A program made the position numbers and the translations under genes. A stretch of 35,926 nt of DNA from Planctomycetota bacterium. Lineage in GTDB: Bacteria; Planctomycetota; UBA11346. Shown in pieces: positions 27,915-33,068 of the stretch. Each line of letters opens with the position of its first letter. Position 1 is the first letter of the stretch. The DNA lies in contig JAQIBG010000491.1 in assembly GCA_027859175.1 (NCBI GenBank), positions 1-35,926 of the forward strand, given 5' to 3'. Below the pieces are notes generated by a model. That model saw only the letters and a list, made by a program, of their open reading frames with translations. It had not been told where the DNA came from and searched no databases.

Positions 27915-29282
27915 ATGCATACTGCTACCACCACCATTCAATCATCAAAGCACTCAGCGCTGCCGCGCATCTGTATGATCAGCACGCACGGCTACGTTGC
28001 TGCTGAGCCACCACTAGGTGCTGCTGACACCGGCGGCCAGGTGGTGTATGTGATTGAGCTCTCGAAAAAGCTCGCCGACCTCGGCTTCGAGGTTGACATC
28101 TGGACTCGTCGGTTCGAAGATCAACCCGAGATCGACGAGATCAGCGACCGTGTGCGAGTGCTACGTGCCCGCTGCGGCGGCAATGACTTCATCCCGAAGG
28201 AATACCTCGCCGACAAGCTGGTTGAATGGTGCGCCAATTTCATGCGCTTCGTCAATAAGCACGACATTGACTACGCCTTCGTGAATTCGCACTATTGGGA
28301 TGCCGGCGTGGCCGGGCAGAATGTCGCGAAACAGCTCGGCATTCCGCACCTCCACACGCCCCACTCGATTGGTCAGTGGAAGCTTGATCAGATGCACACC
28401 GACTTCCCCGGTAAGGAAGCCGAGTTCGAAGAGCAGTACAACTTCAAGAGCCGCATCAAAAACGAACATATTATCTTCAACGAGGCTGACCTCGTTATTG
28501 CCACCACGCCGGTGCAAACCGACATGCTGGTCAAAGACTACGGCGTGTCCAAGGGCCGGATCCGCATGATCCCGCCTGGCTATGACGACAACCGCTTCTT
28601 CCCGGTTTCAGGCGCGAGTCGCCAAGTGGTGCGCGAACGCCTCGGATGGGACGGCGGCCCGGTCATCCTCGCGCTCGGACGTCTAGCTGAGAACAAGGGC
28701 TACGACCTTCTCATCAAGAGCTTCAAGTTGGTGGCCGACCGCCACCCCAAGGCTCTGCTCCACCTAGCGGTAGGCGGCGAAGAACTCGGCGACCACGAAG
28801 CCGGCATCATGAAACAATTGGTTGCCCTGGTTGACGAGTTGGATTTGAAGAAGCAAGTCGTCTTCGGTGGTTTTATCAGCGACGAAGAACTGCCCGATTA
28901 TTACCGCTCGGCCGATGTATTCGTGCTGTCCAGTCGCTACGAACCATTCGGTATGACTGCTATCGAAGCCATGGCCTCCGGCACCCCCACGGTTGTTACC
29001 AGCCACGGCGGCTTGTGGCGCGCCATCATGTATGGCCGCCACGCCTTGATCGCCGACCCCTTCGACACCGAAGACCTGGGCATCACAATTTGCAAGATCC
29101 TCAAATTCCGCCACCTCGGTGCGCAACTGCGCTCACGCGGTGCACGCCGTATGCGCGCCATGTTCACTTGGACTGGCATCGCCCAACAGTTGGTCAGCGC
29201 GGCCGAGCAACGCACCTCGCGGACCCTAAAAACGCCTGACTTTGAATACGATGACGAAGGCGCCTGGATCGATTTCGACTAA
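27915..29282 (+). CDS. mfpsA: GT4 glycosyltransferase, mannosylfructose-phosphate synthase / sucrose-phosphate synthase-like
   Basis: 'CMISTHGYVAAEPPLGAADTGGQVVYVIELSKKL', 'RRFEDQPEIDE', 'CGGNDFIPKEYL', 'NSHYWDAGVAGQ', 'LHTPHSIGQWK', 'IPPGYDDNRFFPVS', 'SSRYEPFGMTAIEAMASGTPTVVTSHGG'; closely resembles the Agrobacterium MfpsA sequence as I remember it. Confidence 0.75.
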   Translation: MHTATTTIQSSKHSALPRICMISTHGYVAAEPPLGAADTGGQVVYVIELSKKLADLGFEVDIWTRRFEDQPEIDEISDRVRVLRARCGGNDFIPKEYLADKLVEWCANFMRFVNKHDIDYAFVNSHYWDAGVAGQNVAKQLGIPHLHTPHSIGQWKLDQMHTDFPGKEAEFEEQYNFKSRIKNEHIIFNEADLVIATTPVQTDMLVKDYGVSKGRIRMIPPGYDDNRFFPVSGASRQVVRERLGWDGGPVILALGRLAENKGYDLLIKSFKLVADRHPKALLHLAVGGEELGDHEAGIMKQLVALVDELDLKKQVVFGGFISDEELPDYYRSADVFVLSSRYEPFGMTAIEAMASGTPTVVTSHGGLWRAIMYGRHALIADPFDTEDLGITICKILKFRHLGAQLRSRGARRMRAMFTWTGIAQQLVSAAEQRTSRTLKTPDFEYDDEGAWIDFD

Positions 29283-29306: not shown

Positions 29307-30056
29307 ATGCCCATTCGTCTCTTCGCTTCTGACCTCGACGGCACCCTGCTGTCCTTTTCCGGCGACACCGCCGCCAGCCAGCGCTTTTCCGCTGCGTGGC
29401 AGGCGGTGCCCGTTGGTGAACGCCCGCTGTTGTGCTATAATAGCGGGCGCCTCGCTAATGATTTGCGCGAGGCCGCCCACAAAGGCGGCCTGCCGCCCAG
29501 TGACTATTTATTCGGCGGCGTGGGCACCACATTGGTAGACCGCAATGGTCGTATCGTACGCGAGTACCAAGAACAGTTCCGCCCTGGATGGGACCGCAGC
29601 TTGGTGGTGGAAGTGCTGTCCTCAATCAAGGGCGCCAAGCGCCAACCCGAGCGCTTCCAAAGCCCATTCAAGAGCAGTTGGTTTTTGCTCAACGCGAGTG
29701 CCGAACTCCTGGCTGAAATCAGGGAACGCCTGCGCACGGTAGAGCTCGACGTCACCGTGGTGTACTCGTCCGCGCGCGACCTCGACATTGTTCCGGCAGC
29801 GGCCGACAAGGGCAACGCGATTCGCTGGCTGTGCGATCATCTCGGCTACAGCCTCAACGAGGTGGTGGTTGCCGGTGATACGGGCAATGACTCGAGCATG
29901 TTCCGCCTGCCCAACATCAACGGCATTGCTGTTGGCAACGCCCGCGAAGAACTCATTGAAGCTACCGCCGGCTGTCGCGTGCTACACACCGCCGCGCCCG
30001 AGGCCGACGGCGTGATCGAAGGCCTGACCCACTACGGCGTGTTTGCCAAAGCCTAG
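29307..30056 (+). CDS. mfppB: HAD-family sucrose-phosphatase-like / mannosylfructose-phosphate phosphatase
   Basis: 'FASDLDGTLLSF', 'LLCYNSGRLANDL', 'FGGVGTTL', 'KSSWFL', 'VYSSARDLDIVPAAADKGNAI', 'VVAGDTGNDSSMF', 'HTAAPEADGVIEGL'; follows the synthase gene. Confidence 0.8.
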   Translation: MPIRLFASDLDGTLLSFSGDTAASQRFSAAWQAVPVGERPLLCYNSGRLANDLREAAHKGGLPPSDYLFGGVGTTLVDRNGRIVREYQEQFRPGWDRSLVVEVLSSIKGAKRQPERFQSPFKSSWFLLNASAELLAEIRERLRTVELDVTVVYSSARDLDIVPAAADKGNAIRWLCDHLGYSLNEVVVAGDTGNDSSMFRLPNINGIAVGNAREELIEATAGCRVLHTAAPEADGVIEGLTHYGVFAKA

Positions 30057-30118: not shown

Positions 30119-32203
30119 ATGACCGAGATCCGCCTGTTCTGCACCGACCTCGACGGAACCTTGATTGGCAATCCTGCCACCACCCACCTGTTCACCTCAG
30201 TGTGGAATGGAATGGACCAATCAAAGCGCCCGTTGCTGGTGTATAATAGCGGCCGCTTGGTTGAAGACATCAGCGCCATCATCGGCAGCGGCGATATCCC
30301 CGAGCCCGACTTCGTCATCGGTGGCGTTGGCACCGAGGTGGTCGACTACCGTGCGCGCAAGGTCCTCGATGATTACCAAACTCACATCGCCAAGGGGTGG
30401 AATCGCGAACAGGTTGACGAACTCATCGCCGCCACGCCCGGCATTGAACGCCAACCCGATCAGTACCAAAACTCATATAAGTCGAGCTGGTACATCTACG
30501 ACGCCGACGATGACACCATTGAGACATTGCACGCGCGACTCGCAGACAGCGGCATCAATGCCGCGGTAATCTATTCATCAAACCGTGACCTCGACATTGT
30601 TCCGGCCGCCGCCGACAAGGGCAAAGCCCTAGCTTGGCTCCTCGACCACCTCGCTATTGACTCCAGCGCCGTGGTAGTGGCCGGTGACCGCGGCAACGAC
30701 CGCGGCATGTTTGAGATCCCCGAGGTGCGTGGCATCTTGGTTGAGAACGCCCAGCCAGAACTGTTTGAAATCGCATGCAGCGCCTGTGGCGAGGTATACC
30801 AGAGCGAACACGTCATGGCCGAAGGCCTGCTTGATGGCTTGGCCCACTTCGGCGTCGCCACTGACCTGCCCGACTCCACCCCGCCGACCATCGTCGCCCA
30901 AGACGAAGAGATGACTCTGCTGTTCGCGCAGCAATACCAGCAGCATCTCACGCCAGCCCAGATCGAACTGATCAGAGATGGCTATGTCCATGCGATCGAC
31001 GCCATCCGCCGCAACATCACGCCGATCGGTTTTAGCGCATGCAGTCTCGACGACAACGAGGTCACCGGCACCGACGTTAATTATCGCAGCGTGTGGGGTC
31101 GCGACGGCGCCATTACCCTGATCAACACCCTGTGCGTCAATGATCCTGCGATTACCGCCTGCGCCAAACGGACCCTCCAGACCCTGCTCGGAGCGGTTAC
31201 CGACGCTGGCTTGGTGCCTGCCAATGTGCGCATTGATGACGGCAGCCCCGACTACAGTGGCGTTGGCGGCATCTGCGCCGTCGACAGCGCACTCTGGGTC
31301 GTCATTGCGCTGTATAATTTTGTACGTCACACCGGCGATGAAGAATTCCTGAGCCAACATCAAGGCGAGCTACGCCGCATCATGCGCTGGCTCGAAGCCC
31401 TTGACGCCAATCGTGACGGTCTGCTTGAGGTGCCCGAGGCCTCCGACTGGACCGACCTATTTGGCCGCAGCTACAACGTGCTGTACGACGAAATCCTATG
31501 GTACCGCGCCAAGGTGTGCTTCGGGCGCATGTTGGAAATGCTCGGTCATCACGAAGAGGCCGCCGACGCCGCACATCAATCGCAGCACATTCGCGGCAAG
31601 ATCCTCCGCACCTTTTGGCCCACCACGCACCGCCAGGATGAGACCATCGAAGCGACCTTCGCCGATATGCAGTATTCGCTCGGCGACGCGCGCTACCTCC
31701 TGGCCGAGGTGTCGCCCTTCAACTTCAATTGGCGCTGCGATGTACTTGGCAACATATTGGGCTTCCTGACCAATGTGCTCGACGTGCCCAAGGCGCGCAC
31801 CGCCTTGTCGTTCATGTGGGGCGTGGGCGTCAATGACCCATGGCCGGTCTCGAATCTCTATCCAGTGGTGCAGGCCGGCGACCCCGACTGGAAACCCTAC
31901 TACACGGTCAACCTGCTCAACCTCCCGCACCATTATCACAACGGCGGCATCTGGCCCTTCGTAGGCGGCCTGTGGGTTCGCTTCATTCACCGTCTCGGCC
32001 AGCATCAAGCCGCATGCCAAGAACTCGTGCGACTCGCCGAATGCAACCGCCAGGGCCGCGCCCACGAATGGGAATTCAATGAATGGTGCCACGGCACCAC
32101 CGGGCGCCCAATGGGCAAGGCCTACCAGGCGTGGTCGGCCGCCACCTTCATCCATGCCTGCCACGAACTCGGCCTAAGCGCCAAGGAACTGCCCGATGAC
32201 TGA
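30119..32203 (+). CDS. Fusion: SPP-like HAD phosphatase + GH100-like (alpha/alpha)6 glycoside hydrolase (amylo-alpha-1,6-glucosidase/invertase superfamily)
   Basis: N-term HAD 'FCTDLDGTLIGN', 'LLVYNSGRL', 'GGVGTEV', 'VIYSSNRDLDIVPAAADKG', 'VVAGDRGNDRGMF'; C-term 'VWGRDGAITLINTL', 'GICAVDSALWVVIALYNFVRHTGD', 'HYHNGGIWPFVGGLWV', 'GTTGRPMGKAYQAWSAATFIHA'. Confidence 0.8.
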   Translation: MTEIRLFCTDLDGTLIGNPATTHLFTSVWNGMDQSKRPLLVYNSGRLVEDISAIIGSGDIPEPDFVIGGVGTEVVDYRARKVLDDYQTHIAKGWNREQVDELIAATPGIERQPDQYQNSYKSSWYIYDADDDTIETLHARLADSGINAAVIYSSNRDLDIVPAAADKGKALAWLLDHLAIDSSAVVVAGDRGNDRGMFEIPEVRGILVENAQPELFEIACSACGEVYQSEHVMAEGLLDGLAHFGVATDLPDSTPPTIVAQDEEMTLLFAQQYQQHLTPAQIELIRDGYVHAIDAIRRNITPIGFSACSLDDNEVTGTDVNYRSVWGRDGAITLINTLCVNDPAITACAKRTLQTLLGAVTDAGLVPANVRIDDGSPDYSGVGGICAVDSALWVVIALYNFVRHTGDEEFLSQHQGELRRIMRWLEALDANRDGLLEVPEASDWTDLFGRSYNVLYDEILWYRAKVCFGRMLEMLGHHEEAADAAHQSQHIRGKILRTFWPTTHRQDETIEATFADMQYSLGDARYLLAEVSPFNFNWRCDVLGNILGFLTNVLDVPKARTALSFMWGVGVNDPWPVSNLYPVVQAGDPDWKPYYTVNLLNLPHHYHNGGIWPFVGGLWVRFIHRLGQHQAACQELVRLAECNRQGRAHEWEFNEWCHGTTGRPMGKAYQAWSAATFIHACHELGLSAKELPDD

Positions 32204-33068
32204 ACAAGCAGCGGTTTTATGCATTGGTGAGGCACTGTGGGACTGTCTGCCGCGCGGCCTGTTTCTCGGCGGCGCACCTCTGAACGTTGCCTACCACCTC
32301 TCGCAACTTGGTCGCCAAGCGGCTCCGGTAACCGCCGTTGGTGACGACTTCCTCGGGCAGGAAATTATCCGGCGCGCCGCCGGCTTTGGTCTGGACACCA
32401 CTTTTATCAGTACGGTTGACCGACTGACCGGGGTGGTGCAAGTACGGCTGGAAAATGGCCAACCCAGCTACGACATCGTCGACCAGGTTGCCTGGGATGT
32501 GATCCCCACCACGCCGGCCTTGCTCGAAGCAGCCCAAGCAGCGCCCGCCCTGGTGTATGGGTCTTTGGCCAGCCGTCATGACAACAACCGCGCCCTGGTG
32601 ACCGCCGCCATCGAAGCCTGCGCTGGGCTCACGGTGTTCGACGTCAATCTCAGAGCCCCCTTCGACGACCAAGACCTGGTCTGGGATTTCGCCAAACGAT
32701 CGCAGTTGGTCAAACTCAATGACGAGGAAATCGCCAATCTGGTGGGTGCCGGCGAATTAGCCGACCAGGCCGAGCGCTTGCGTGAGCGCTGTGATTGCCG
32801 TTACGTGTGCGTTACCGCCGGCAGTCGCGGCGCCGGCCTGTTGAGCCCCGATGGCTGGCAGTTTGCTGCAGCCGAGCCGATCACCCTGGCCGATGCTGTC
32901 GGCGCCGGCGACAGCTTCATGGCTGCCCTCCTCGACGGACTCCTGCAACAGGCCGACCCGGCAGCTGCACTTCATCGCGCCGCCCGCCTCGCCGAATTCG
33001 TTGCCAGCAGCGATGGCGCAACGCCAAGCCACGACCAAGCCCCGCGCGCGGCACGCAAACTCAGCTAG
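32196..33068 (+). CDS. PfkB-family carbohydrate kinase, probable fructokinase
   Basis: 'VLCIGEALWDCLPRG..LGGAPLNVAYHLSQLG', 'VTAVGDDFLGQEI', 'VFDVNLRAPF', 'ITLADAVGAGDSFMAALL'; overlaps the upstream CDS by 8 nt. Confidence 0.9.
   Translation: MTEQAAVLCIGEALWDCLPRGLFLGGAPLNVAYHLSQLGRQAAPVTAVGDDFLGQEIIRRAAGFGLDTTFISTVDRLTGVVQVRLENGQPSYDIVDQVAWDVIPTTPALLEAAQAAPALVYGSLASRHDNNRALVTAAIEACAGLTVFDVNLRAPFDDQDLVWDFAKRSQLVKLNDEEIANLVGAGELADQAERLRERCDCRYVCVTAGSRGAGLLSPDGWQFAAAEPITLADAVGAGDSFMAALLDGLLQQADPAAALHRAARLAEFVASSDGATPSHDQAPRAARKLS

Follow-up and report, generated by a model that had tools for sequence, protein, structure and literature searches.

A planctomycete gene that joins a phosphatase to a glycoside hydrolase probably encodes, judging from its sequence, a bifunctional make/break enzyme in an operon for a sucrose-type (sucrose or mannosylfructose) osmolyte cycle. 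The gene lies in the window, the 35,926-nucleotide stretch of a Planctomycetota MAG contig (G000:C476) that we analysed, as a single uninterrupted open reading frame of 694 amino acids (30119-32203, plus strand) with an ATG start and zero internal stops. Its product comprises an SPP-type HAD domain (residues 1-247; 30119-30859, plus strand), a variable short linker (residues 248-262; 30860-30904, plus strand) and a GH100-like (alpha/alpha)6 hydrolase domain (residues 263-694; 30905-32200, plus strand). Pfam placed S6PP at residues 5-245 (4e-62), and Glyco_hydro_100 (3e-17) and GDE_C (3e-14) in the C-terminal half. An AlphaFold model of the whole fusion (pLDDT 82.6, pTM 0.83) contained two confident domains separated by a dip to pLDDT 56-70 at the linker, with further low values at the GH active-site loops (440-451, 505-536 and 576-610). 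The first-pass annotation had seen in one protein an SPP-type HAD and a toroid like that of alkaline/neutral invertases, preceded by a second phosphatase, which Pfam and the open reading frames confirmed. Every motif it named was found in the 694-residue frame: DLDGT (residues 10-14) and GDRGND (189-194) in the HAD half, and WGRDG (326-330), VDSALW (388-393), SDWTD (442-446), HYHNGGIWP (605-613) and GKAYQAWS (666-673) in the GH half.

Searching the GH half against 84,980 species genomes returned 343 relatives, of which the best 80 were retained. Among these 80, 77 are fused N-terminally to an SPP domain, across many phyla, and the remaining 3 lie at contig ends. An assembly or frame error merging two genes, a concern raised in the first-pass annotation and favoured by the window's origin in a MAG contig, is thus vanishingly unlikely: the fused frame recurs in 77 of 80 independent genomes, named isolates among them, and we rejected the artefact on the strength of this conservation. 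The search for the same architecture in other genomes, which that annotation had proposed, also removes the idea of a single-genome novelty, as the fusion is widespread and the normal state of its family. Under even genome sampling, matches at E<=1e-30 to the whole protein or to a single domain occurred in 26 of 289 genomes for the Verrucomicrobiota sample, 15 of 294 for Planctomycetota, and 9 of 201 and 2 of 189 for the Chloroflexota and Myxococcota samples respectively. Stand-alone GH relatives account for many of the matches in planctomycetes and in the Chloroflexota sample.

The phosphatase half retains its complete catalytic set in the window (D10, D12, T14, S44-G45-R46, K167, D190, N193 and D194), as do nearly all of its relatives, and departs from 57 conserved HAD positions at only three sites, each conservatively. 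Its R191 is common to L019 and L020 only. The S6PP profile scored the domain at 210 bits over residues 5-245 (cut-off 20.3), and the NCBIfam equivalog TIGR01485 at 158.8 bits (cut-off 183.65), which leaves it outside the plant/cyanobacterial equivalog. Foldseek matched it best to Synechocystis SPP (Slr0953, PDB 1s2o; PF05116; TM-score 0.81 by target length). The two have a common fold and the complete HAD-IIB catalytic set at about 29% identity; the window domain differs in being joined N-terminally to a glycoside hydrolase and in falling below the TIGR01485 cut-off. In the fused HADs of L063, L067 and L068, REVTILP or SDITILP stands where RDLD(I/V)LP is usual, a possible change of phosphatase function.

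In the hydrolase half, the predicted general acid D446 (31454-31456, plus strand) and general base E655 (32081-32083, plus strand) are the equivalents, by alignment of the family profile to InvA, of the catalytic residues D188 and E414 reported for that enzyme (PMC6995568; the PDB chain counts one higher), and both are invariant in 55 sequences. The first-pass annotation had held that absence of acid/base residues would speak against its reading; they are present, and with catalytic residues intact in both halves its proposed disaccharide make-and-break role is supported. Foldseek ranked InvA, InvB and CINV1 best (TM-score 0.61-0.64 by target length, 0.63 for InvA/InvB), with glucosylglycerate hydrolase at 0.50 at most. 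The domain has in common with GH100 invertases (Anabaena InvA 5goo/5gop and InvB 5z74, Arabidopsis CINV1 6ttj) the (alpha/alpha)6 fold, the dyad equivalents and the YHNGGxWP motif, but identity in structural alignment is 19-20% and the window domain is fused to a phosphatase. The Glyco_hydro_100 profile (PF12899) matched the domain at 6.5e-18 and the full fusion at 62.7 bits (cut-off 23.6), though through two partial stretches only; it gave 65 bits for the GH part, where a canonical Acidithiobacillus GH100 reaches 625. The domain also scores with GDE_C and MGH1-like families. An equivalent of InvB Arg430, a residue linked to catalysis, is missing through a three-residue gap (GKEARIYQTWS in InvB, GKA---YQAWS in the window) and is absent from all family members displayed in the alignment. 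The GH100-like identity that had been proposed therefore holds for fold and dyad, whereas by profile score and the lost arginine the domain is a GH100 outlier, a distant relative only. It would work like a GH100 invertase, and its full GH100 membership is doubtful. Stand-alone GH relatives on Deinococcus plasmids (L099 and L103; 34-35% identity) are annotated glycoside hydrolase 100 but have unrelated sugar genes as neighbours (clusters with ABC-transporter, ROK, GH38 or aldolase genes); the annotation therefore need not mean invertase.

The fusion gene stands third in an operon whose members all lie on the plus strand. First comes an SPS/MshA-like GT4 glycosyltransferase of 455 amino acids (27915-29282; PF00534 1.6e-33, GT-B_Sucrose_synth 1e-10), predicted from sequence to be an NDP-hexose:fructose-6-phosphate glycosyltransferase. 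A stand-alone SPP-type HAD phosphatase of 249 amino acids with intact HAD motifs (29307-30056; S6PP 4.3e-60) lies directly upstream of the fusion, and the gene for a PfkB-family sugar kinase of 290 amino acids (32196-33068; PfkB 3.9e-35) shares its first 8 nt with the 3' end of the fusion gene. The kinase is a probable fructokinase, fructokinase being its best NCBIfam match at 80.8 bits, below the cut-off of 450. The glycosyltransferase fails the SPS equivalog TIGR02472 (198 bits, cut-off 576) and scores slightly better as MshA; its closest solved structures are Tll1590 (6kih) and H. orenii SPS (2r60), and it belongs to a distinct GT4 clade. This neighbourhood is conserved. A glycosyltransferase of the window family adjoins the fusion in 71 of the 80 loci (best 80 of 343), upstream in Verrucomicrobiota and Planctomycetota and downstream in Bacteroidota and Chloroflexota. 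PfkB often follows the fusion, but roughly half of the full-flank loci yielded none, a count that partly reflects search sensitivity.

On our analysis sucrose is most likely the disaccharide, because the nearest solved structures of glycosyltransferase, phosphatase and hydrolase are sucrose enzymes. The glycosyltransferase might instead take GDP-mannose as donor and make mannosylfructose, the GH domain then being a mannosylfructose hydrolase. We lean against this possibility while taking it seriously: the glycosyltransferase is no canonical SPS, a Paracoccus glycosyltransferase encoded beside a HAD gene is its closest plasmid counterpart (44%), and the GH domain's scores extend to GDE_C and MGH1-like families; however, the nearest solved structures of both proteins are mostly sucrose enzymes, and a GDP-mannose gene was not found among the recurrent neighbours of the fusion loci. 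In Agrobacterium, a GT4 enzyme (MFPS) and an SPP-like HAD (MFPP) reportedly make the fructose-containing osmolyte mannosylfructose. These are separate proteins of about the same size, and the pairing of GT4 with SPP-like HAD resembles that in the window. The Agrobacterium mannosylfructose genes are not known to include a fused hydrolase. A PMM-family match in the window genome proved to be an unrelated acetate-kinase/HAD frame and was set aside. There (G000:C33:7216-10620; L001, 1444-3405, minus strand), an acetate-kinase-like frame runs stop-free into a phosphomannomutase-like HAD over at least 653 amino acids, adjoining an amino-acid permease-like gene; it is an apparent second enzyme fusion of this genome.

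In the cycle that we propose, the glycosyltransferase would link NDP-hexose to fructose-6-phosphate, and the SPP domains, solo and fused, would take the phosphate off the resulting disaccharide phosphate. The product, a non-reducing fructose-containing disaccharide, would serve as a compatible solute. Once it is unneeded, the GH domain, acting as an inverting hydrolase through the D446/E655 dyad, would cleave it, and PfkB would rephosphorylate the released fructose. Fusion would fix the phosphatase:hydrolase ratio at 1:1 in one molecule, so turnover would have to be set through regulation of activity and not of expression. Besides the domain matches, the intact catalytic residues, the conserved fusion and neighbourhood, the MscS association and the precedent of a trehalose operon, such a cycle is favoured by a series of unfused operons (L165-L167), a Paracoccus plasmid set of glycosyltransferase, HAD and GH32-like genes, and an Acidithiobacillus plasmid set of PfkB, GH100 and SPS-like genes. 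Against it stand the glycosyltransferase's score below the SPS cut-off, the outlying position of the GH domain relative to GH100, the unrelated sugar clusters around the Deinococcus relatives, the loci in which PfkB was not found, and the restriction of the MscS association to loci labelled Verrucomicrobiota.

The first-pass annotation had also suggested that the fusion acts on the phosphorylated disaccharide, in which case the GH domain would split that compound and the fused HAD clear the resulting phosphosugar. The presence of both activities in one chain would suit this arrangement, which we nevertheless consider very unlikely. The nearest structures of the GH domain are InvA and InvB, and InvA is reported to be stringently specific for the sucrose bond (PMC6995568); the HAD is of SPP type and not a hexose-phosphatase; and unfused GH homologues occur in operons with separate SPPs. 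The suggestion is unsupported, and cleavage of the dephosphorylated disaccharide remains our preferred reading.

The presence of two phosphatases in the window operon is most simply explained by a lineage-specific tandem duplication of the fused HAD. In the tree, the solo SPPs of the window, L019 and L020 form one group (91/96) and the corresponding fused HADs another (99/81). These two groups are neighbours, with L025, inside one clade (89/84); it is this adjacency that points to duplication. The fused HADs of L019 (3345-5453) and L020 (4204-6318) have lost the nucleophile (D10P) and carry T14S and N193S, whereas their solo SPPs retain the residues at D10, T14 and N193. These catalytically dead domains nonetheless keep 49 of 57 conserved HAD positions. 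Between L019 and L020 the dead fused HAD is 64% identical and the active solo SPP 58%, and the divergence of the fused HAD relative to the GH half lies within the family range (expected 69.7, s.d. 5.8 at that GH identity). We therefore rejected relaxed decay; conservation of a HAD dead in catalysis suggests a structural or regulatory role in these two lineages. With a solo duplicate present, catalysis by the fused HAD would become dispensable and could be lost, as in these two sister lineages. In other Planctomycetota, a second divergent SPP-like gene lies directly downstream of the fusion (L025:8500-9273 and L040:1524-2297), and the fused HAD of L025 is intact.

Whether the fused HAD is mainly regulatory or structural across the family, binding the disaccharide phosphate and gating the hydrolase while a solo SPP, where present, does the catalysis, can be weighed on the same data. 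The nucleophile-less HADs of the solo-SPP carriers L019 and L020 are as conserved as their GH halves predict, Synechocystis SPS is known to carry a non-functional phosphatase domain (PMC4390843), and a pTM of 0.83 for the two-domain model fits a defined arrangement. We still judge this rather unlikely: the nucleophile was lost once, in a single clade, the two affected lineages L019 and L020 being sisters, and most carriers, like the window, keep all HAD catalytic residues, usually with no other SPP nearby, which makes catalysis the default. Both phosphatases of the window are probably active, given the retained catalytic residues and the few, conservative departures of the fused HAD. The earlier suggestion that one phosphatase is regulatory accordingly fits L019 and L020 and finds no counterpart in the window, where the fused HAD is fully intact in its catalytic residues. 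A more specific proposal, unlikely in our view, is a switch within one polypeptide, in which the HAD would sense the phosphorylated intermediate and gate the hydrolase, the L019 and L020 HADs would have become pure pseudophosphatase sensors once the phosphatase was duplicated, and the substrate might be mannosylfructose. If true, breakdown would be held off during synthesis, and a mannosylfructose substrate would make the GH domain a new hydrolase activity.

Unfused forms point to how the bifunctional enzyme may have arisen. At L166 and L167 an unfused GH gene (53-56% identical) lies next to a glycosyltransferase and a separate divergent SPP; L165 carries a glycosyltransferase and an unfused GH, with no SPP recognised. 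Glycosyltransferase and GH belong at all three loci to the families seen in the window. The GH tree places L165 basal to the fused clade (91/70 support) and L166 and L167 in an unresolved fork at the base of the clade. From this tree and the unfused operons, the fusion probably arose once, out of an unfused make/break operon. Other gene sets occur on plasmids. Paracoccus sp. TOH plasmid p1 (L101, 2704-6296) encodes a weak GH32-like hypothetical protein, an SPP-like HAD and the glycosyltransferase 44% identical to that of the window, a possible non-orthologous make/break set. The 10.8-kb Acidithiobacillus sp. AMEEHan plasmid p6 (L102, 685-6628) carries a compact sucrose-type set that encodes an MFS transporter, PfkB, a canonical GH100 and a HAD family hydrolase, so annotated, that is SPS-like.

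A link to osmotic stress comes from the neighbourhood of the fusion in other genomes. Genes for MscS-family channels are present in 15 of the 80 loci (best 80 of 343). In 12 carrier genomes we counted 1-6 MscS genes per genome, a density at which about 0.54 such loci would be expected. Small MscS genes occur at L021, L024, L026, L032, L035, L059, L061, L067, L068 and others, mostly adjacent and co-directional, lying upstream of the glycosyltransferase, between it and the fusion, or after PfkB. All 15 loci are labelled Verrucomicrobiota and are not phylogenetically independent; the differing positions of the gene argue for repeated association. A UspA-like gene lies between glycosyltransferase and fusion in five loci (L043, L047, L050, L052 and L061). 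Stretches at L047 and L050 that had matched MscS were rejected as reading-frame noise, their sequences reading as UspA-like; at L047 another match, weak and MscS-like, does lie downstream of the fusion. The MscS association suggests an osmolyte product, and compatible solutes observed or predicted in Planctomycetota include sucrose (PMC13342039).

In aggregate, the loci form a widespread and apparently undescribed family of operons, predicted to serve a compatible solute of the sucrose type, among phyla whose solutes of this kind are poorly known. Searches of the open-access literature turned up no account of an SPP-GH fusion. The family offers a natural series, from unfused operon through active fusion and fusion with duplicate to dead-phosphatase fusion, on which the avoidance of osmolyte futile cycling can be tested directly.

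Known systems supply partial precedents. The msc-gt-tpsp trehalose operon of Thermoproteus tenax likewise combines disaccharide genes with a mechanosensitive channel and a glycosyltransferase (PMC3634074), but it is archaeal, makes trehalose through GT20 and is without a hydrolase fusion. Bidomain SPS (GTD-PHD) and TPS-TPP proteins are also disaccharide-pathway fusions with a phosphatase domain, in some cases a dead one (PMC4390843, PMC3634074). Those fusions pair synthase with phosphatase, both anabolic, whereas the window fusion pairs phosphatase with hydrolase, an unusual anabolic-catabolic combination built of known parts.
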